This document shows, one piece after another, positions 28,638 to 38,802 of a DNA stretch of 43,724 nucleotides. A program made the position numbers and the translations under genes. Numbering within the stretch: the first letter of the stretch is position 1; each line of letters begins with the position of its first letter. The stretch lies in the NCBI GenBank assembly GCA_949300515.1, contig CASGEP010000013.1, positions 1-43,724 of the forward strand, in the 5' to 3' direction. The stretch is from an uncultured bacterium. GTDB taxonomy: Bacteria > Cyanobacteriota > Vampirovibrionia > Gastranaerophilales > Gastranaerophilaceae. The notes under the pieces are model-generated. The model made no database searches and was not told the DNA's origin. It saw only the letters and a program-made list of their open reading frames with translations.

Positions 28638-29397
28638 GACAATTGAATTGATTACAAGAAAATCCCGTGAAGAATTAAAACTTATGCGTCATGCAGGCTC
28701 GATTGTGGCGCTTGTACATCAGGAGATGAAAAAAGCCGTCTGCGAAGGGATTTCGACCTATGAGCTTGATATGATTGCTTCAAAAATTATTAAGGATAAT
28801 AAGGCGATACCTACTTTCCTTAACTACCATGGCTACCCTGCTTCTATCTGCACATCGGTAAATGAGCAGGTGGTGCACGGTATACCGTCAAGAGACATTA
28901 TTCTTCATGCGGGCGATATAATATCAATTGACGTGGGCGCTACTTATCGCGGGCTTGTGGGCGACAGCGCGTGGACTTATCCTGTGGGCGAGATTTCAGA
29001 CGATAAAAAAATGCTGCTTGAAACAACTGAAAAAGCCCTGATGGCGGGGATTTCAAGGATGATTAACGGCAATTTGCTCGAGGAGGTTTCAGCTGCGGTT
29101 GAAGATGTCGCGCTTTCAAAAGGTCTTGGAATTGTCCGCCAGTACGGCGGTCACGGGGTCGGAAGAAATATGCATGAGGACCCGTTTGTGTTCAACTACC
29201 GCACGGGCAACAAGACTGTGCTTAAAACAGGCATGACAATTGCAATTGAGCCTATGTTAAATCTGGGCAAGGACGATGTATACGTGCTTGATGACGATTG
29301 GACGGTCGTAACCGCTGACGAGAAGGCTTCCGCGCACTTTGAACACACTGTTCATGTGGGCGAGGACGGACCCGAGATTTTAACAAAGCTAAGTTAG
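28627..29397 (+). CDS. map: Type I methionine aminopeptidase
   Basis: Map removes the initiator methionine from nascent proteins. Metal ligands are seen in SIDVGATYRGLVGDSAW (two Asp), GGHGVGRNMHEDP (His), IAIEPMLNLG (Glu) and HFEHTVHV (Glu). The length (256 aa) is normal. ATG 28627 overlaps adk; a TTG at 28648 is an alternative. The usual following genes infA-rpmJ-rpsM are missing; instead a nuclease gene converges and overlaps its last 9 nt. Confidence 0.96.
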   Translation: MKSRTIELITRKSREELKLMRHAGSIVALVHQEMKKAVCEGISTYELDMIASKIIKDNKAIPTFLNYHGYPASICTSVNEQVVHGIPSRDIILHAGDIISIDVGATYRGLVGDSAWTYPVGEISDDKKMLLETTEKALMAGISRMINGNLLEEVSAAVEDVALSKGLGIVRQYGGHGVGRNMHEDPFVFNYRTGNKTVLKTGMTIAIEPMLNLGKDDVYVLDDDWTVVTADEKASAHFEHTVHVGEDGPEILTKLS

Positions 29398-29976
29398 ATA
29401 TTTTTTGGGAAGTTTTTCTATTATTCCCAAAATGCGCTCGAAATAGCCTTTTTCGTCCAAAAAGTCTGCAGATGCCGACTCGAGATTTTCAAGCGATATA
29501 TAGCGTATCGATATGTTTTGGGTTTTAAAAATTTTTGAGGCGCAGTAAAGGTAAACTATGCTCTGCAGCCGGGTATCAGGGTTTTTGGGTATGTTTTTTG
29601 ATTTCCAATCGTATATTACATATTTGCCGCCGTCTTGAAAAATGGCGTCAAATCTGCCTGTCAGATAAAAATCAAACCCGCCCCCGCTGCATTTTACAAG
29701 GAAACTCTCCTCTGATTTTATAAATTTTTCTCTGTCTTTAAAAATTTCGCAATCAAGAACTCTGTCCAGCATTTCTTTTTCAATTTTTGGCATGTTGTTT
29801 TTAATTTTTGTTATATCAAAGCCCGAGAGGTAGTATGAAATCATTGCGTGGAGGCGTTCTCCGCGTTTTGCGCTTTCGTTTTGGTTTAGAAAATCAAGTT
29901 TTAAAATGTATTTGTTGATGTAATTTTCTACACTTTCATCAAGTATTTTGAGTGAATTTACGCTAAAAGTGTTCAT
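29389..29976 (-). CDS. RecB-family PD-(D/E)XK nuclease, stand-alone
   Basis: The 195-residue protein has the RecB nuclease pattern: H43 in GERLHAM, acidic E89/E90, D110 in GRFDAIF, D123 and K125 in YDWKSK, and Q138 with Y142 in LQSIVYLY. The spacings D110-D123-K125 equal those of E. coli RecB D1067, D1080 and K1082. The four-cysteine iron-sulphur cluster of AddB or Cas4 is absent. It overlaps the giant helicase gene by 4 nt and probably works with it as the nuclease of an AddAB/RecBCD-like enzyme. Cas4 is unlikely: no CRISPR or cas genes are nearby. Confidence 0.82.
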   Translation of the reverse strand: MNTFSVNSLKILDESVENYINKYILKLDFLNQNESAKRGERLHAMISYYLSGFDITKIKNNMPKIEKEMLDRVLDCEIFKDREKFIKSEESFLVKCSGGGFDFYLTGRFDAIFQDGGKYVIYDWKSKNIPKNPDTRLQSIVYLYCASKIFKTQNISIRYISLENLESASADFLDEKGYFERILGIIEKLPKKYLT

Positions 29977-32900
29977 TTTGCCTCCGGAGTGTCAAATATT
30001 TCAGACGGCTGCATATCTTTTTCCTTTTTAAACATTTTGTAAGATTTTGCGCAGCTCAGCACCAGCTTTGTTTTTGCCCTTGTAATGCCGACGTATAAAA
30101 GTCTGTAGTTTTCTTCAAGAATTTCTTGTTTGAGCGTGCCGCCGTCTTTGGGGTTTTGTTTCATTGACTCGATAATTTCGGTATTTTTCTTCAATTTTAT
30201 ATCATCAATTTTAAGCCCCATATTTTCGCTTGTAAGTTCAGGTATAAAAACAAAGTCAAATTCGTCGCCTTTTGCTTTGTGCAGTGTCATTATGCTTACT
30301 GTGCCCGTTTTTTCCTCATCTTTTGTGAAAAATTTTACGCTTTTGTTTATTCTGTTTGATATTTCATTCAGGCGCTCAACAAGTTCTTCAAATGTACTGC
30401 GGGTTTTGAGGATTTTTTGCGCAACGGAGTAAACCATTGATACGTTTGCAAATTCAAGAGTGTTTTTAAAGTAGTAGTCGCCGATTTCAAAAATAAGTTC
30501 AAGCGGGTTTGTTGTACTCTTTAGCAGGAAATACCTTAAATCCCACCAGAGGCTGTATTTTGAAAAATAATCCGAAACAAAGTCTTTTCCCTCGATTTCG
30601 GCTAAAATCTCTCTTTCACCCCGGTACTGTTCAATTTCAAGCATTGTTTCAAGGCTGTTTTTAATATTTTTTTTGTTTTTTGTATCGTTTATAAAATTAA
30701 AAATTGCAAGAGTGACCCTGAATACGATATTGTTATTGAGGGTGTCGGTTGTTTTTTCGGTTTTGATGTTTTGCCCTTCAAGAAATTCCGCCCAGCTTAA
30801 AACCTGCCAATTGCTGCGAAGGAGCAGAGCTATAGACTTATCGGGATAATTACTTTTTATTTTTCTGATTTCATTTACTATATAATTTTTCTCATCCGTA
30901 CTTTTATCAAAAAGTTTAAACTCCGCCCCGTCTGAATTTGCGGGATTTTTGCCCTCAACGGGCTGCATTTTTATGTTTAAAAACGCATCGGGTGCAAATT
31001 TTACAGCTTTATCAATCGTTTTATTTGCAAGTTCTATGATTTTTATTCCGCACCTTTGCGATCTGTTCATCTCGACGTTATAGTTTTCTTTTATAAATTT
31101 TTTAAATCCCTTAACATCCGAGTTTGAAAAAGTCGCCGTTATTGCCTGATTTACATCTCCGCAGCGTATTATATTGCCGTACTTTGCACCTAAAATGCTT
31201 ATCAGTTCCTGCTGGGCGGGAGAGGAGTCTTGCGCTTCGTCCTCTATAATTACCCTACAGGTGTTTTGATAGTGTAAACGCACGCCGGAGTTACTTTTCA
31301 GGAGTTTTAAGGCGTAAAATAGCAGGTCATCATAGTCAAGGAAATTATTTTCTTTCATCAGAGTGTTGTATGTGTGATAAATCCTTTTAAAGCTCGGGCT
31401 TTTGATTTTTTCAAATTGCGCTCCCGAGTTTTTAAAGTCGCTTATTGCTCTTTCGTAGAGTTCCGTTTTGTCATAATCAAGCCCCGAATTTACAACGGAT
31501 GTCGAGATTAGCTCGCGCCTTTTTATTTCGTCCGTTATTTCAAAGTCGTTATCAATATTTAAAAAAGTGTAGTTGTTGTTTTCTTTTAAAATCTTAAGCG
31601 CAAGCCCGTGAATGGTCGAGATTTGCGGAAGTTCAACCAAATTCGGAAAGTTTTGTTTTATCCTTTCTCTGAAATTTCTTGCCGCGGACTCCATAAAAGT
31701 GAGTACAAAAATATTTTCGCTCTTTAAATCTTTTATAATGCTCCCTTCGAGCAGTTTTAGAATAAGAGCAAGCATAATTGTCGTTTTGCCCGACCCTGCA
31801 ACGGCACTGACCGCCATTTTGCCGCCCCTGTAGTCAAGTACGGGTTTTTGATCGTCACGCGGGGTGATTTTATTTTTGGGGCTTGGTTTTGTATCCTGTT
31901 CAAGTTTAAAGAATTTGTCTATTGCGCCAAAGTTTTCAACACCGAGAGTGTCATAAATGCTTGAATATATGTATTTTTTCTCATCCGAGCAGAGAAAAAG
32001 CTTGTATAAAATTCTCGCTGTCCTGTCAAGAGTCAGCTCCAGATTGTCATTTGCTTCAAAAGTGCTCTTACTCCAGCTTTTCTGGAATACCCAGGAGTTG
32101 TAGAGCATACCGATGTCTTGCTTTATCCAGTCTGAATTTGAACAGTCCAGCAAAAACAGGTGTTTTACGTTTATTTCATTGTCAATTAGTTTTTGGGCGC
32201 TTGCAACAATTATTGAACTTTGCGGTATTTCATCCTCGCTTAGCGGGTTTTCCGAGATTATTGTATTTTGCAGCTGTTCAATGAGGTTTAATTTTTCAAA
32301 ACCGTTTTTAAAAACATCTTCAAAATCGTTAATTTGTTTTGCGAGTTTATTTATTTTCAGTATGGAGCTTTGGTTTTCGGCGCTTTTTTCCACATATTTG
32401 CAGCAGATTTCAAAAAGCTGTCCGCTCAGATTTTTTTCTTTTATTGTTTCGATAAAATCAAGAAAATCATGTATTTTTTGATTGTTTTGTTCTCTTAAAA
32501 ATTCTTTTATCCCTTTTTTGTATATATAATTCGCCTCGCGGTAAAGACCCGTAAGCTCTATTACCTCATCGGGAGCGAGTTTTAAAATCTCCGCCGCGAT
32601 TGACTTCAGGATAAAGGGGCTTATAACATCGTCGTGTATGTTTGCAAGTTTTAAAATTTCAATTACCGTTGCGACAAGCGGGTTTTGGTTGAGTTTTTCG
32701 CTGCCCGAGAGAAAAAATACATCCTGTTTTATTTTTTTAAAACAAAAGCGCAGATAATCATCGGTTACAGGTGTTACAACAGCAATATCAGAGGGTTTTA
32801 CACCATTTTTAATTAGAGTTTTTATTTCTTTTACGGTATCAAAAATCATTTCGTCGCGGCGGATGAAGCTTTTTATCAGTGTGTTTTCGGGGCAAACGGA

Positions 32901-33740
32901 TTTTTTATCTTTTATGCGGTTAAACACCTCTTTTGCGCATTGCAGTTTTTCGTTATTTTCCCTTAAATCAACAGGTTTTTGCCCGAGGAAGTTTTCAAAA
33001 TCAACTATTGCGGCGCTTAAATATCCAAGACGCGACGAGCCGAGCGGGTCTTGGGCAATAATAAATTCTTTTATGTCATTTTTTATTGTCTTTAAATATT
33101 CAAAAACAGCGGGGGTTATTTCGTCCGCATCGTCTAAAATTACGTAGCGGTAAGGGTTTTTGGTGTTTTTGTAAAGGAATTCAAAAATGCCTACCTGTCT
33201 TAAATAGTCAAAAGCTCTGTATTCAAGGGTTTTTAGTTTATACAGATTTATTGCCTCTCTTGCTTCGTTGGCGTAGGATTCGTTCAGAACTCTTTCGCGC
33301 TTTTCTATATCGGTTTTATTCAGGGCATTTTGAACAATGAGCGAATGGCGCCTGAAAAGCTGGTGAAGAAGGTTTACTTTTGAGTTGTAGCCCTTAAATT
33401 CTATCTCTTTTATGCAGTTTTTAAAAATGTACTGGGAAACTTCAAGCCCGCACAGGTGTGCAAAAACGCCCGCTCCGGGCTGTTTTATTTTATTCTCCAC
33501 AAGCACCCAGTTTTTCTCAAGGGTGTTTCTTGCAAGACCAAAAAAACTAAATACATTCAGGCTGCCTATGCTGCCCGTTTTTGAGTTGAGTTTTATTTTT
33601 TCAGTAAAATTTTTCTTTTTTCTTGCGTTTTGAACGAGGACGAGAATTTCTCCGGGGTCTGCTCCGGAGTTTATTAATCTGAAATAATTTTCAACAAGTA
33701 TATCTGTTTTATTTGAGTTTATGGTCGAGTAAAATATCAT
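29973..33740 (-). CDS. Tandem SF1 helicase: degenerate AddB/RecC-like half fused to UvrD/AddA-like half
   Basis: The 1255-residue protein has two helicase-like halves. The C-terminal half is complete: Walker A AVAGSGKTT (about 645-653), Walker B IIEDEAQDSSPAQQ (about 833), motif III GDVNQAI, motif IV NRSQRC, motif V TLHKAKGDEFDF (about 1153) and motif VI YVGITRAKT (about 1217). The N-terminal half looks like a decayed copy: STINSNKTDIL where Walker A should be, VILDDADEITPAVFEYL (about 201) as a Walker B relic, and SAQKLIDNEINVKHLFLLD as a motif V relic. This matches AddB or RecC roles in end recognition. No nuclease domain is attached; the next gene supplies one. It follows priA with 4-nt overlap. 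Fusion is inferred from motifs by eye. Confidence 0.85.
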   Translation of the reverse strand: MIFYSTINSNKTDILVENYFRLINSGADPGEILVLVQNARKKKNFTEKIKLNSKTGSIGSLNVFSFFGLARNTLEKNWVLVENKIKQPGAGVFAHLCGLEVSQYIFKNCIKEIEFKGYNSKVNLLHQLFRRHSLIVQNALNKTDIEKRERVLNESYANEAREAINLYKLKTLEYRAFDYLRQVGIFEFLYKNTKNPYRYVILDDADEITPAVFEYLKTIKNDIKEFIIAQDPLGSSRLGYLSAAIVDFENFLGQKPVDLRENNEKLQCAKEVFNRIKDKKSVCPENTLIKSFIRRDEMIFDTVKEIKTLIKNGVKPSDIAVVTPVTDDYLRFCFKKIKQDVFFLSGSEKLNQNPLVATVIEILKLANIHDDVISPFILKSIAAEILKLAPDEVIELTGLYREANYIYKKGIKEFLREQNNQKIHDFLDFIETIKEKNLSGQLFEICCKYVEKSAENQSSILKINKLAKQINDFEDVFKNGFEKLNLIEQLQNTIISENPLSEDEIPQSSIIVASAQKLIDNEINVKHLFLLDCSNSDWIKQDIGMLYNSWVFQKSWSKSTFEANDNLELTLDRTARILYKLFLCSDEKKYIYSSIYDTLGVENFGAIDKFFKLEQDTKPSPKNKITPRDDQKPVLDYRGGKMAVSAVAGSGKTTIMLALILKLLEGSIIKDLKSENIFVLTFMESAARNFRERIKQNFPNLVELPQISTIHGLALKILKENNNYTFLNIDNDFEITDEIKRRELISTSVVNSGLDYDKTELYERAISDFKNSGAQFEKIKSPSFKRIYHTYNTLMKENNFLDYDDLLFYALKLLKSNSGVRLHYQNTCRVIIEDEAQDSSPAQQELISILGAKYGNIIRCGDVNQAITATFSNSDVKGFKKFIKENYNVEMNRSQRCGIKIIELANKTIDKAVKFAPDAFLNIKMQPVEGKNPANSDGAEFKLFDKSTDEKNYIVNEIRKIKSNYPDKSIALLLRSNWQVLSWAEFLEGQNIKTEKTTDTLNNNIVFRVTLAIFNFINDTKNKKNIKNSLETMLEIEQYRGEREILAEIEGKDFVSDYFSKYSLWWDLRYFLLKSTTNPLELIFEIGDYYFKNTLEFANVSMVYSVAQKILKTRSTFEELVERLNEISNRINKSVKFFTKDEEKTGTVSIMTLHKAKGDEFDFVFIPELTSENMGLKIDDIKLKKNTEIIESMKQNPKDGGTLKQEILEENYRLLYVGITRAKTKLVLSCAKSYKMFKKEKDMQPSEIFDTPEAK

Positions 33741-35752
33741 AATATATCGCTTGGATCGACATCTACGGTCATTTTTATTTCTTTGTGCAGGCTTATCCGC
33801 CTGAGAAAACTAAGCACCGTGTCATGTCCTTTTTGTCCGAGTTTATTTTTTATAAGAATGTTATAACGGTATTCGCCCCTTATTTTTCCTATTACACAGG
33901 GAACGGGACCAAGCATAATTATTCTTTCATCAAGAGAGAGTTTTTTGATGTAGTTTTCAAGGTGAAGCGCAATTTCGACACAGGCATGCTCTGCCATGTA
34001 ATCTTCGCTTGAACTTATAATTATTCTTATTATTTTTGAATAAGGCGGATAGTCGTACTCTTGGCGCAGCTCTTTTTCTTTTTCAAAAAAGCTTAAATAA
34101 TCCTGTTCTTTTGCCTTCTGCAGAAATAAATTATCGGGGTTGTATGTTTGAAAAATAACTTTCCCCCTATGCTCGCCCCTGCCCGAGCGCCCCGCAACCT
34201 GTGTCAAAAGGGAAAAGCCGCGCTCGGAGCTTCTGTAGTCGGGAAGATTAAAACTCAAATCCGCATTAATTACCCCGACAAGAGTGACATTTGGGTTATC
34301 AAGCCCTTTTGCTATCATCTGGGTGCCAATAAGAATGTCTATTTGCCCCTGTTGAAATTTTTGCAGAATTTCTATATGTTCGTTTTTTTTGTTTAAACTG
34401 TCACTGTCAAGGCGCGCTATTCTTAAATCTTCAAATATTTTTTTTGCTATTTCTTCCACTCTTTGCGAACCTGTGCCGAAGTTTTCAAGTTCTTCGCTTC
34501 CGCATTTTTCACACTTTGCGATTTTAGTTTCATATCCGCAGTAGTGGCACTTGTAGGAGTGTGTTTGAGAGTGGTAAATTAAAGGAATTGCGCATTTTTT
34601 GCACTCGAGCACCTCGCCGCACTCCATACACTGTGTATAACTTGAAAAACCGCGCCTGTTGATTAAAAAAATAACCTGTTCGCCGCGCTCGACCGTTTGT
34701 TTTGTTTTTTCTATAAGCGTGCGCGAAAATATACCCAAATTTCCGTCCTGTCTTTCGCTTTTCATATCAATTATGCTGACATCGGGCAGTTGGGCGTTGT
34801 TGTATCTGTTTTTCAGTTCAAAAAGCGAGTTTGTATTTTGCGCCTCCCAGAAGCTTTCCACATCGGGCGTTGCACTGCCGGAGATTATTTTCGCTCCGTG
34901 GAGCTGTGCGAGTTTTTTTGCAACATTTTTTGCACAATATCTGGGGTTTGGCATGGTTTGTTTGTAGCTTGTGTCGTGTTCTTCATCGATTATTATAAGT
35001 CCCAGGTTTGAAATCGGCGCAAAAACAGCCGAGCGCGCACCAAATAGGATTTTTATTTCATTGTGTTTTAGTTTTTGCCATACACTGTATTTTTCCGCCT
35101 CTGATACGGAGGAGTGCCAGATGGCTACACTGTCCGCCCCGAAGCGCGATATTGTGCGCATTGTAAGCTGTGATACAAGCGCAATTTCAGGCGCCATAAA
35201 AAGCACGTTTTTACCGCTTTCTATTGTATCCTGTATTAATTTAAAATAAATCTCCGTTTTGCCCGAGCCTGTAATGCCGTACAGAAGCGAGTTTTGTGCA
35301 TTTACATGTTTTATTTCTTCATAGACTTTTTGCTGCTCGGGACTGAGTTTGTGTTCAATGTGATTGTTTTGTACGAGTGCCAGATTTTCTTTTTTTGGTT
35401 TTCTGTAGTTTTTTACGTTTTTTTCAAAAAACTTTTGCGGGAGCGCGGTTTTTAAAACCGTTGCAAGGTCGCAAAAATAATAGTTTGCCACCCATTCAAG
35501 AAGTTTTAAGTACTCTATGTCAAAAAGCGGCTCGCTTTCAAGGATTTCATCTATATACTTTGCCTTAATACTTTCATCAAGGTAATTTGAAAAGCCGACA
35601 AGATAACCTTTAATTTTTCTTTTCGGTCCGAAAGGCACGCTGAGTGCCTGTCCGATTTTAATTTTGTCCTTAAAATCGTCGGGAATTAAGTAGCTAAATG
35701 TTTTTGTGCCGAGTTTTGCGACATCAACAAGTACAAGTGCGTATTTATACAT
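33737..35752 (-). CDS. priA: Primosomal helicase PriA
   Basis: PriA restarts stalled replication forks by loading the replicative helicase at D-loops and forks. Residues 1-100 form the DNA-binding start (LVLVDVAKLGTKTFSYLIP). The helicase has Walker A GITGSGKTE (about 161) and DEEHD (about 255). A zinc region with four Cys pairs (CMEC, CKKC, CHYC, CEKC) lies around 374-418. The GRSGRGEHRGKV block is motif VI-like. Its length (671 aa) is somewhat below E. coli (732). It starts immediately after the preceding stop and overlaps the helicase gene by 4 nt. Confidence 0.96.
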   Translation of the reverse strand: MYKYALVLVDVAKLGTKTFSYLIPDDFKDKIKIGQALSVPFGPKRKIKGYLVGFSNYLDESIKAKYIDEILESEPLFDIEYLKLLEWVANYYFCDLATVLKTALPQKFFEKNVKNYRKPKKENLALVQNNHIEHKLSPEQQKVYEEIKHVNAQNSLLYGITGSGKTEIYFKLIQDTIESGKNVLFMAPEIALVSQLTMRTISRFGADSVAIWHSSVSEAEKYSVWQKLKHNEIKILFGARSAVFAPISNLGLIIIDEEHDTSYKQTMPNPRYCAKNVAKKLAQLHGAKIISGSATPDVESFWEAQNTNSLFELKNRYNNAQLPDVSIIDMKSERQDGNLGIFSRTLIEKTKQTVERGEQVIFLINRRGFSSYTQCMECGEVLECKKCAIPLIYHSQTHSYKCHYCGYETKIAKCEKCGSEELENFGTGSQRVEEIAKKIFEDLRIARLDSDSLNKKNEHIEILQKFQQGQIDILIGTQMIAKGLDNPNVTLVGVINADLSFNLPDYRSSERGFSLLTQVAGRSGRGEHRGKVIFQTYNPDNLFLQKAKEQDYLSFFEKEKELRQEYDYPPYSKIIRIIISSSEDYMAEHACVEIALHLENYIKKLSLDERIIMLGPVPCVIGKIRGEYRYNILIKNKLGQKGHDTVLSFLRRISLHKEIKMTVDVDPSDIL

Positions 35753-36133
35753 CTATAGCACCTTTTGCGGGATATTTTCGATATTTTGGTCAATTGTGTC
35801 AAAAATGGCTTTTTGTATTGCAGTTCCGGGGGCAAAATCGCTGTTTGCGGGTAAAATCTTTATACTCGAGCTGTTTGTACCTTCTTTTGAAATGGTTACA
35901 ATGTAGTTTTTATTTAGGGCTTTAAACATTATATAGCCGCTTTTTGACTGCATTTCCACTACTTCATACTGACCTGTGGAATTAAGCGCGCTGAGTGTCA
36001 GTAAATAAAGATTATCCGCACTTACGGAGTAGTTTTTGTTGCAGCTTGAAAGCATTGACTCGTTTGCGCTTACGTGTGTGCTTGTGATAAGTGTGAATAA
36101 AAATAAACCAAAAAGTACTAAAATCCTTTTCAT
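35753..36133 (-). CDS. Small secreted protein of unknown function in the polA-priA operon
   Basis: The N-terminus is a signal peptide (MKRILVLFGLFLFTLITSTH, cleavage near VSANES). The 100-residue mature part is soluble, with one Cys and blocks such as SAALNSTGQYEVVE-like strands (seen as SALNSTGQYEVVEMQSKSG) and FKALNKNYIVTIS, probably a mixed alpha/beta fold. I recognise no family. Its start codon overlaps the polA stop by one base (TAATG), and its stop abuts the priA ATG, so translation is coupled to two DNA-replication genes though it is exported. This odd location is not explained by anything in the sequence. Confidence 0.75.
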   Translation of the reverse strand: MKRILVLFGLFLFTLITSTHVSANESMLSSCNKNYSVSADNLYLLTLSALNSTGQYEVVEMQSKSGYIMFKALNKNYIVTISKEGTNSSSIKILPANSDFAPGTAIQKAIFDTIDQNIENIPQKVL

Positions 36134-38802
36134 TACTCTCCCTCCCTCCAGGTTTTTGCGTATTTTGAATCAACCTTGAGCGGAACTTTTAGCGGCTGAT
36201 TTAGCTCCATTGCTTTTATGGTAAGTTCTTTTACTTCCTCCAGTTCTTCTTTTGGCACTTCAAGTACAAGTTCGTCGTGCACCTGAAGAATAATTTTTGA
36301 TTTGTAGTTTTTCAAATCTTCGTGCAGTTTTACCATTGCCATTTTGATTAAATCCGCGCTTGTACCCTGCAGCGGCGCATTTACGGCGGCACGCTGGGCA
36401 AATTCTCTTATTTTTGCGTTCCTTGAGTTTAATTCTGCGCCAAGATAGCGTTTTCTGCCGTAGAGCGTTTCAACGTAACCTTCCTGATGCGCTTCTATCA
36501 GGGTGTTATTAATATAGGTGTTAATTTTCGGATATGTTGCAAAGTATTTGTCAATAAACTCCTGAGCTTCAAAAGGAGTTATCTGAAGCACGGAGGACAG
36601 CCCGTAGCGCGTTTGTCCGTAGATAAGTCCGAAGTTAACGGCTTTTGCCTTTCTTCTCATTTCTTTTGTGACGTCTTTTTTGTCGACTTCAAAAATTTTG
36701 GATGCGGTGATTAAGTGTATATCTTCATCGCTGCAAAAGGCACCTATGAGTACTTCATCTCCCGAAAAATGTGCAAGGAGCCGAAGTTCAATCTGGGAGT
36801 AATCGGCAGAGAAAATGTAGGAATTTTCCCTGTCTGAAGGTACAAAAGCCGCGCGAATGCGGTTTGAAAATTCCGTTCTCACGGGAATGCTCTGCAAATT
36901 CGGGTCTGAGCTTGAGAGTCTGCCCGTTGCCGTTACTATTTGATTAAAATGAGTGTGGATTTTGCCGTCCTCTTTTACAAGTTTTGGCAAGTTGTCAATG
37001 TATGTTGTTTTGAGCTTCATAAGCTGTCTGTGCTCTAAAATATCTCTTGCAATCTGATGCTCGAGGGCAAGCTCGTCAAGGATTTTTGCCGATGTTGAAA
37101 AGCCCGTCTTATTCTTTTTTGAGGGTTTAATTTTAAGAGTGTTGAACAAGATTTCGGAAACTTGTTTGGGCGAATTGATGTTGAATTTTGTACCGGATTG
37201 ATTATAGATTTTTTCTTCATAGCCGAGAATTTTTTCATTAACTTCCGCGCTTAAAGTTTTCAGATAGTCAACATCAAGGCTTACGCCCGTGTCCTCGATG
37301 TCTTTTAAAACGTAAGCAAGGGGAAGCTCGACATCATTTAGCAGGGTTTTTTCTTTTTCGCCGAGCGAGCTTTGGTAAAATTCATGTAATTTTAAAATGT
37401 ACCCTGTTAACTTATAACCGTCGTTTTCATCAGGCATGAAGTTTAAATAGTTTTGTATTTGTGAAATTAAGTCGTGTTTTCTGGAGGAGTCTTTAACGTA
37501 GCTTGAGAGCATAACATCCGCAACGACGCCTTTCGGGTTAATGTGGTTTAATTCGCCTTTAATATCACAGACAACTTTTTTGATATTCGGGTTTTCAAGG
37601 ATTTCTATTACTCTTTTATCGTCCTTTTTTACGAGAGCACAGGAAGTGCCGTCTGCAATATAGAGAGAATTTGGCATTTGGGGCAAAATTGCACTCAGGG
37701 AAATTATCTGTCCTTCTTTTATTTCATTTAGGAAATTGCGAATTTCATCTTCTGTTGTTACTTTTGTTATTTTACCGTCCTCTTTGTTGTTTTGTTCCCC
37801 AAAAAGTCCGAGCTGTATCTGTGTCTGCCCTTCTTCGTTTTTTATTGTAACAAAGCTCTGTTCTTTTGTTTCGCCGTCGTTTGTTTCAAAGGGCAGGAGC
37901 AGTTTATTGATATTTTTTACAAAGCTGTAGAATTGAACACTTTGGAAAAAGTCCAAAACGGCTTGTTTGTTTGGTATTTCAAGTCCCGTGCGCGAAAAAT
38001 CAAAGTCAATATCCACATCTTTTTTAATTGTTGCAAGAAATTGCGACAAATAAGCCGTTTCTTTTTGCTCTTTCAGTTTTTCTTTTATGGCTTTTTTGGT
38101 TATGTTTTCAATATTTTCATAAACACCGTCAAGAGTTTTGTATTCCCCTAATAGCCAGCAAGCGGTCTTTGCGCCTATTCCTTTAACTCCCGGGATATTA
38201 TCCGAGGTATCTCCGCAAAGAGCTTTGTAGTCAATAACCTGCGGGGGCTCCACTCCCATATTTTCAATAACTTCATCCCAGCCGTAGCAGTTTAGGACAC
38301 CTTTTTGCGGAATTAATACTTTTATTGCGCCTTCTTTGTCTATAAGCTGGAAGCTGTCTTTATCGCCCGTCAGGATATATGTGCTGTGTCCCAAGTCTTT
38401 TGCTTTTTTTGAAATCGTACCTATGATATCGTCGCCTTCAAAGCCTTCTTTTGTGTAAATCGGGATGTTTAGAGCCTTTAGTCCGTCCATAATCAGTGAA
38501 AGCTGGGAGCGAAGGGTGTCCGGCATGGTTTGTCTGTTTGCCTTGTAATCCTCGTATTTTTCAAGCCTGAAAGTGTGTCTTGAAACATCAAAAGCAACGG
38601 CTATCGAGTCGGGTTTTATATTTGCACAGCCTTTTGCAGAGGAGGAAAGCAAGTCGAAAACAGATTTAAAAAAGCCGTAAATTGCCCATGTGGGCTGGTG
38701 TTCGGTGGTTTGCATATTGGTGCGCTCAAGCGCGAAAAACATTCTAAATGCAAGCGCGTGCCCGTCTATCAGTATTAAAGTGTTTTTACCCTCGCTCCTC
38801 AT
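36133..38802 (-). CDS. polA: DNA polymerase I
   Basis: Pol I removes RNA primers and fills gaps. The 5'-3' flap nuclease domain (1 to about 290) begins with LILIDGHALAFRMFFAL and contains LTGDKDSFQL. The polymerase domain (about 490-889) has DYSQIELRLLAHFSGD (motif A), RRKAKAVNFGLIYGQTRYGL (motif B) and QVHDELVLEV (motif C). The middle 3'-5' exonuclease-like domain lacks the first DxE motif: the region reads IISLSAILPQM, so proofreading is probably lost, as in B. subtilis Pol I. SD GAGGTGGG precedes the ATG. It lies 25 nt after tadG. Confidence 0.97.
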   Translation of the reverse strand: MRSEGKNTLILIDGHALAFRMFFALERTNMQTTEHQPTWAIYGFFKSVFDLLSSSAKGCANIKPDSIAVAFDVSRHTFRLEKYEDYKANRQTMPDTLRSQLSLIMDGLKALNIPIYTKEGFEGDDIIGTISKKAKDLGHSTYILTGDKDSFQLIDKEGAIKVLIPQKGVLNCYGWDEVIENMGVEPPQVIDYKALCGDTSDNIPGVKGIGAKTACWLLGEYKTLDGVYENIENITKKAIKEKLKEQKETAYLSQFLATIKKDVDIDFDFSRTGLEIPNKQAVLDFFQSVQFYSFVKNINKLLLPFETNDGETKEQSFVTIKNEEGQTQIQLGLFGEQNNKEDGKITKVTTEDEIRNFLNEIKEGQIISLSAILPQMPNSLYIADGTSCALVKKDDKRVIEILENPNIKKVVCDIKGELNHINPKGVVADVMLSSYVKDSSRKHDLISQIQNYLNFMPDENDGYKLTGYILKLHEFYQSSLGEKEKTLLNDVELPLAYVLKDIEDTGVSLDVDYLKTLSAEVNEKILGYEEKIYNQSGTKFNINSPKQVSEILFNTLKIKPSKKNKTGFSTSAKILDELALEHQIARDILEHRQLMKLKTTYIDNLPKLVKEDGKIHTHFNQIVTATGRLSSSDPNLQSIPVRTEFSNRIRAAFVPSDRENSYIFSADYSQIELRLLAHFSGDEVLIGAFCSDEDIHLITASKIFEVDKKDVTKEMRRKAKAVNFGLIYGQTRYGLSSVLQITPFEAQEFIDKYFATYPKINTYINNTLIEAHQEGYVETLYGRKRYLGAELNSRNAKIREFAQRAAVNAPLQGTSADLIKMAMVKLHEDLKNYKSKIILQVHDELVLEVPKEELEEVKELTIKAMELNQPLKVPLKVDSKYAKTWREGE

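Follow-up and report, generated by a model that had tools for sequence, protein, structure and literature searches.

Two adjoining genes of an uncultured gut bacterium, one for a double helicase of 1255 amino acids (aa) and one for a nuclease of 195 aa, probably encode a DNA-end-processing machine of the AddAB/AdnAB type whose parts are divided differently, with the nuclease on a chain of its own. The genes lie in a stretch of 43,724 nucleotides (nt) from the family Gastranaerophilaceae of the phylum Cyanobacteriota (contig CASGEP010000013.1, assembly GCA_949300515.1), which we call the window. An earlier reading of these letters, the original prediction, had proposed that two helicase folds are joined here in one chain and that a RecB-type nuclease has been split off. 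Its sequence observations are confirmed and its interpretation is supported. Beyond it, we find that the three modules (N-terminal helicase half, C-terminal helicase half and nuclease) recur in the phylum in three layouts: fused, as an operon and dispersed. As judged by sequence comparison, the three are inherited together, and fusion, operon and co-inheritance support the view that they act together.

The window is contig C13 of an assembly of 1.72 Mb in 57 contigs, 94.6% complete. The closest named record, Candidatus Galligastranaerophilus intestinavium, is 83% identical across the N-terminal half. The parts of the pair are these:

29973-33740, minus strand: helicase gene from the list of open reading frames (ORFs); product of 1255 aa.
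31905-33740, minus strand: N-terminal half, residues 1-612; predicted degenerate superfamily 1A (SF1A) helicase module, AddB/AdnB-like (AlphaFold, Foldseek, profile match to UvrD).
33705-33728, minus strand: P-loop relic STINSNKT, residues 5-12, aligned with GxxxSGKT of relatives.
31869-31904, minus strand: linker at the fusion point, residues ~613-624; low predicted local distance difference test (pLDDT) score; near the gene boundary of operon lineages.
29976-31868, minus strand: C-terminal half, residues 625-1255; intact SF1A helicase by Pfam and tree.
31782-31808, minus strand: motif I of the active helicase, SAVAGSGKT, residues 645-653 (sequence and 80-locus comparison).
31227-31247, minus strand: motif II of the active helicase, IEDEAQD, residues 832-838 (sequence and 80-locus comparison).
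29389-29976, minus strand: stand-alone RecB/Cas4-type PD-(D/E)XK nuclease, 195 aa (PF12705, structure model, Foldseek).
29602-29610, minus strand: DWK catalytic motif of the nuclease, D123-K125; D123 and K125 are invariant in 53 sequences.
29973-29976, minus strand: 4-nt overlap of helicase stop and nuclease start, from ORF coordinates.

The C-terminal half is, by its motif set, an intact SF1A translocating helicase. Pfam places UvrD-helicase at residues 631-884 (E = 8.8e-52) and UvrD_C at residues 1096-1232 (E = 1.4e-24), and finds no PF12705 nuclease domain in the 1255-aa protein. We compared the pair across related loci, the best 80 of 387 relatives from a search of public genomes. Motif I ([AP]G[AS]GKT), motif II ([ILV]EDEAQD) and motif III (GD[IV]NQ[AS]) are present in 80 of 80, bearing out the helicase motifs first read in this half. 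Its scores lie far below the cut-offs of the NCBIfam equivalog models (156 against 911 bits for PcrA, 89 against 708 for AddA in the model addA_Gpos, 84 against 696 for RecB), so that it is not PcrA, AddA or RecB by name. Nor is it an ordinary PcrA/UvrD paralogue, an identity ruled out by the grouping in a tree of 42 rows. There the C-terminal half falls into one group (support 100/100) with the separate helicase found elsewhere in the phylum, away from PcrA (12 rows) and from UvrD-PDDEXK proteins (6 rows); the program warns of long branches.

What is the other half? Pfam gives the N-terminal half no clear match of its own (one chance-level hit). AlphaFold, run on residues 1-632 with 71 sequences, predicts a whole but degenerate SF1A-like core (pLDDT 87.4, predicted TM-score 0.85), in keeping with the helicase fold proposed for this half. 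At the fusion point the pLDDT is 56 in block 611-620, 66 in 621-630 and below 50 at residues 615-619. Foldseek figures for this half refer to the best 50 of 451 matches. By TM-score over the query (TMq), AdnB is highest (0.71; E = 2.1e-16, root-mean-square deviation (rmsd) 6.9 Å). The best AddB match has a TMq of 0.66 (E = 5.3e-17, rmsd 6.9 Å; AddB chains 0.64-0.66), and the values are 0.60-0.63 for AddA, 0.56-0.59 for RecC (E near 1e-11) and 0.53-0.57 for RecB. The top match by E-value is UvrD (1.6e-19), at a TMq of 0.59 and an rmsd of 11.8 Å. Because AdnB and AddB pair a higher TMq with a lower rmsd than this UvrD match, the domain arrangement is predicted to be more like that of AddB/AdnB than of free UvrD. 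A profile that includes separate homologues of this half (N-modules) matches UvrD with E = 7.1e-7 over profile positions 3-283.

The decay of the N-terminal half can be read in its motifs. STINSNKT, the stretch in which NKT had been taken to replace a P-loop, aligns where some relatives carry GxxxSGKT or SGKT, and for that reason we regard it as a P-loop relic. The DDAD noted near residue 201 is at 203-206. The motif V relic announced as SAQKL exists (ASAQKLID), at residues 513-520 and not near 550. At the P-loop of this half GK[ST] occurs in 0 of the 80 Gastranaerophilales loci (one is cut at that site); in a chosen comparison of 24 rows it is kept by all 9 dispersed proteins, by 4 of the 9 fused ones and by none of the 6 from operons.

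The 195-aa protein is, by its motifs, a RecB/Cas4-type enzyme with its catalytic residues. It matches PF12705 over the cut-off (E = 7.8e-11), and its structure model (pLDDT 94.4) finds ACE1, AdnA and SSO0001 as best Foldseek matches, with AddA and RecB lower. We aligned 53 sequences: 52 of the 79 nucleases found in the order, plus the window's own. The motifs of the PD-(D/E)XK RecB family (H, D, D-x-K, Q..Y) are present and invariant in all 53, and the invariant columns include G39, H43, E89, G107, R108, D110, D123, K125, Q138 and Y142. The three residues on which the nuclease was originally recognised, D110, D123 and K125, are thus among them, and the 4-nt overlap with the helicase gene stands as described. 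Iron-sulphur (Fe-S) cysteines of the AddB/Cas4 type are absent from the window's nuclease and from the four other rows of the same genus in alignment A3; the four are present in other genera. A simple pattern finds the cysteines in full in 31, in part in 4 and not at all in 44 of the 79 nucleases of the order (2 of which are cut by contig ends). In a 21-row alignment the last three aligned cysteines are all present in 11 rows, two of three in 3 and none in 7. The window's genus has apparently lost the Fe-S cluster with the catalytic residues intact. ACE1, the closest solved structure, is an Argonaute-associated Cas4-family protein of cyanobacteria; possibly this nuclease lineage has been recruited by Argonaute systems.

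The fusion is kept throughout the 80 related loci, most of which are labelled Candidatus Gastranaerophilales. Both helicase modules share one ORF in 80 of 80 (one cut by a contig end), which rules out chance or a frame artefact, and the nuclease adjoins the fused helicase in 79, locus L213 lacking it. The search for the same pair in relatives thus returned the proposed division, two helicase modules in one chain and the nuclease split off. The helicase and nuclease genes overlap in 74 of these 79 loci, by exactly 4 nt in 21, if the first possible start codon is assumed. Among 58 genomes around the window, its own included, 53 give a strong match and 5 a PcrA-level match only (G022, G037, G049, G052 and G057). 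One of the loci, L232, is recorded as Fusobacterium sp. CAG:439 and has the Gastranaerophilales gene pair; it is probably misnamed.

Is the N-terminal half separable from the rest? Of 386 genomes in the phylum, 300 match a profile of it. In genomes of other classes than the window's the N-module is mostly a protein of its own, with an open frame of ~660-810 aa; in five such proteins no Pfam or NCBIfam match above cut-off was found. The closest relative of the C-terminal half there is a separate helicase (C-module; open frame mostly ~740-870 aa), and the third part is a stand-alone nuclease of ~260-300 aa, most with Cas4-type cysteines. In the dispersed layout the three genes lie at separate places in the fetched genomes of that kind. 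We take most genomes with this layout to be cyanobacteria because they belong to the Cyanobacteriota and a gene of the CemA family, a family of chloroplasts and cyanobacteria, lies by the N-module in 6 of 6 tested loci. It is divergent from the separate N-module gene in all of them (L109, L110, L111, L114, L115 and L116).

The operon layout occurs in families f12, f18, f21 and f22. Nine genomes were fetched for it (G101, G068, G075, G079, G093, G096, G071, G063 and G104, the last from f28). The helicase modules adjoin in eight of them, the exception being G104 (the N-module of G071 is weak, at 19 bits). The nuclease comes third in six of these eight; in the remaining two the helicase gene is cut by the contig end. 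Exact 4-nt overlaps join the helicase genes in G068, G079, G096 and G063, and the gene boundary falls near the low-confidence linker of the window's protein. Since its homologue is a gene of its own elsewhere in the phylum, and part of a three-gene operon in some lineages, the N-terminal half is a separable module. G382, from the window's class, has fused helicases of 1451 aa that overlap a 283-aa nuclease by 10 nt. Each layout forms a single group in both the N-module tree and the C-module tree; under midpoint rooting the branching order of the layouts differs between the two. Two ORFs, of 331 and 349 aa, share the N-module homologue of G223 (L113:7017-9071, minus strand); either the gene is broken or the sequence has an error. 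The N-half profile finds G022 and G333 at no better than ~1e-6; the match in G333 was rejected: that stretch holds an 826-aa PcrA-like protein matching the C-half profile only.

To what extent do the modules travel together? We scored 203 genomes from other classes of the phylum (127 that match the N-profile and 76 that do not), 66 unlisted genomes being taken as of this kind. Both separate modules are found in 121, the N-module only in 3, the C-module only in 10 and neither in 69. When the order's own N-profile is added, 7 of the 10 C-only genomes also match, leaving G063, G071 and G253, and an N-module adjoining the helicase is seen in G063 and, weakly, in G071. A nuclease profile was run on 80 chosen genomes, among them several of its source genomes, which match by construction. 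It matches at E<=1.4e-56 in 29 of 30 sampled both-module genomes (G102 lacks it), and it matches in 3 of 3 N-only genomes and in 10 of the 11 genomes that are C-only or from operon lineages (the one without is G063).

RecC (PF04257) has the complementary distribution. Of the phylum's 386 genomes 62 have it, but of the 121 with both modules only 1 does, G104, an assembly with 9% contamination; 7 of the 203 genomes have neither any module nor RecC. The nuclease profile matches 0 of 26 sampled RecC genomes of f37, a small-genome family, and matches weakly (1e-11 to 1e-17) in 4 of 4 f14 genomes. In the remaining six genomes it gives 1.8e-24 (G088), 1.9e-8 (G058) and, in four, nothing. The RecC genomes G060, G073 and G085 have N-profile matches of ~1e-11, and G090, without a RecC match, also matches; in these four no C-module match at 1e-60 was found. 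The distribution suggests that RecBCD replaced the trio once or twice in the phylum. A conventional system elsewhere in the genome would tell against the pair, and in the window's 94.6% complete assembly there is no RecC (PF04257) and no other PF12705 nuclease; RecD and AddA/AddB models were not searched for genome-wide.

The neighbourhood of the pair includes two genes named in the original prediction:

33737-35752, minus strand: priA (Pfam PriA domains); overlaps the start of the helicase gene by 4 nt; context, outside the machine.
36133-38802, minus strand: polA (Pfam); context.

The order upstream of the helicase gene, all on the same strand, is priA, a 126-aa ORF, polA. The small ORF (35753-36133, minus strand) has a signal-peptide-like start, belongs to no clear family and has 1 nt in common with polA. 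A gene for an M24 peptidase flanks the pair on the nuclease side, priA being the other neighbour (Pfam). The proposed link to priA and polA holds in part. Among Gastranaerophilales loci, priA is directly upstream in 41 of the 73 with at least 1.5 kb of upstream sequence, and polA is on the same strand in 36 of the 59 with ~6 kb. PriA was not found beside the N-module in the other loci of the phylum that were fetched, and on both counts the priA link is clade-specific.

Several observations weigh against an AddAB/AdnAB-like machine. Foldseek ranks UvrD above AddB by E-value for the N-terminal half; in PDB searches a Gastranaerophilales-only profile of this half reaches Rep alone (E = 0.0066), and the profile of the separate N-modules alone finds nothing at E<=1. 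For the nuclease model the nearest structure is that of ACE1, a Cas4-family protein that stands alone, with AdnA in second place. The 62 RecC genomes fall into f37 (57), f14 (4) and f28 (1), non-independent counts for which Fisher values, blind to kinship, were set aside, and the exclusion may rest on one or two replacement events. Nine members of the class go unmatched by the N-half profile, as does G164, a near-complete genome from the same family, so that the machine is not indispensable. Finally, a lone UvrD-PDDEXK protein is encoded in 14 of 14 other genomes of the window's genus:

L034:4546-7617, minus strand; L033:4205-7240, plus strand; L052:3951-7022, plus strand: lone UvrD-PDDEXK helicase, open frames of 1009-1029 aa.

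Those checked have a C-terminal Cas4/AddB-like domain, and no AddB-like gene was recognised beside them in the ORF lists of L034 and L052. The protein was not found in the window's assembly and may be absent there only through incompleteness. It is possibly a backup helicase-nuclease.

Could the pair instead be a weapon against phages, a helicase-nuclease like Gabija's GajB with its nuclease or like the restriction-linked UvrD-Cas4 proteins? Many GajB models hit the C-terminal half, the best at 2.7e-43; models of Cas4 and of Argonaute-associated Cas4-like proteins hit the nuclease weakly, and parts of PMC5704561 place UvrD-Cas4 fusions in defence contexts. We nevertheless think this unlikely. 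The GajB matches probably arise through the shared UvrD core, and no GajA-type nuclease is among the tested neighbours (priA, the 126-aa ORF, polA and the M24 peptidase). In each of the two trees the layouts separate cleanly into groups, and the distribution is complementary to that of RecC. A pattern search of viral contigs gave 66 matches, of which none was confirmed as related to the separate N-module; a phage origin was rejected on the same grounds. It is likewise improbable that the pair works mainly on stalled or reversed forks or flaps with PriA and PolA and not on double-strand break ends. The 4-nt overlap with priA, the nearby polA and the adjacency of priA in 41 of 73 loci speak for such a role. 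In the other 32 loci, however, priA was not seen directly upstream, nor was it seen in fetched N-module loci of other lineages, and the priA/polA context does not discriminate, since RecBCD-type machines feed PriA restart too. We consider it very improbable that the N-terminal half serves as a regulatory copy resembling UvrD, forming a built-in UvrD dimer, with the nuclease acting alone elsewhere. UvrD is first by Foldseek E-value, and the separate N-module keeps its P-loop in 9 sampled dispersed-gene genomes. Yet AdnB (0.71) and AddB (0.66, at 6.9 Å) surpass the top UvrD match (0.59, at 11.8 Å), the nuclease adjoins in 79 of 80 loci, and no P-loop is left in 6 of 6 sampled operon lineages.

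We infer that the AddAB/AdnAB-like pair functions in DNA-end processing from the biology of AddAB and RecBCD together with its distribution complementary to RecC. In such a machine the C-terminal half would be the motor, driven by ATP, and beside it would dock the N-terminal half, a partner of the AddB/RecC type that would split the duplex and hold or read the other strand. The nuclease would attach to the double helicase and cut the emerging strand or strands, leaving a 3' tail for RecA. The products of priA and polA, beside the pair in part of the order, might then help to rebuild the fork. In cyanobacteria of the phylum the same machine would be assembled from three unlinked genes.

Model cyanobacteria recombine and transform well. 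On balance we favour the idea that motor, inactive partner and nuclease modules make up a further RecBCD-type class, a widespread end-processing machine of the Cyanobacteriota. Some lineages would have it as an operon, most cyanobacteria as dispersed genes (perhaps with models described as lacking RecBC among them) and the Gastranaerophilales of the gut as a helicase fusion, and in one family with small genomes RecBCD would have taken its place. Parts of PMC5101192 report weaker conservation of recBCD among cyanobacteria, with no recB or recC of the Escherichia coli type in Synechocystis PCC 6803 and Nostoc PCC 7120. The same parts list an E. coli-like recB for PCC 7942 and 7002, and Synechococcus elongatus is said in a portion of PMC10269773 to have AddAB; both count against our proposal, as by these portions not every model cyanobacterium lacks RecB-like proteins. 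A 2005 survey (PMC1193525) proposed still-unknown presynaptic systems in bacteria. The three modules are concrete candidates for the presynaptic, end-processing system of cyanobacteria, open to deletion and purification, and their natural operon, dispersed and fused layouts reveal the separable parts of an AddAB-type machine. No paper on the pair or the trio was found in the open-licence literature of PubMed Central.

How does the pair compare with known systems? It resembles UvrD-Cas4 in joining an SF1 helicase to a Cas4-like nuclease. Excerpts of PMC5704561 describe UvrD-Cas4 fusions and an unfused UvrD/Cas4-like operon, mostly from Clostridiales, for which a role in repair is suggested; a second helicase module is not described for these systems in those excerpts. 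The order's own UvrD-PDDEXK proteins form a separate group in the tree and coexist with the pair in the same genus. Gabija differs in its OLD-family nuclease GajA, which is absent beside the pair, where the flanks are the PD-(D/E)XK nuclease, an M24 peptidase and priA. RecBCD shares the single nuclease and the inactive partner fold (the RecC match given above); it differs in that the window's genome has no PF04257 RecC, the nuclease is off the motor chain and the distribution nearly excludes RecC. AdnAB supplies the best TM-score of the N-terminal half (AdnB), and the nuclease matches the nuclease domain of AdnA. AdnA and AdnB, however, each carry a C-terminal nuclease, whereas neither helicase half has a PF12705 match here. 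AddAB (RexAB) likewise combines one active SF1A helicase, a second helicase fold and a RecB-family nuclease. The active subunit has its counterpart in the C-terminal half with its conserved motifs, and the inactive partner in the predicted fold of the N-terminal half, its P-loop decayed in the window; the Fe-S cysteines of AddAB and Cas4 are found in the nuclease of some relatives and not in the window's. AddA and AddB both bear a C-terminal nuclease domain; in the window the helicases are fused, no nuclease domain was found in either half, and the one nuclease is a separate chain of 195 aa. The C-terminal half also falls below the cut-off of the addA_Gpos model, and no addB match is listed.

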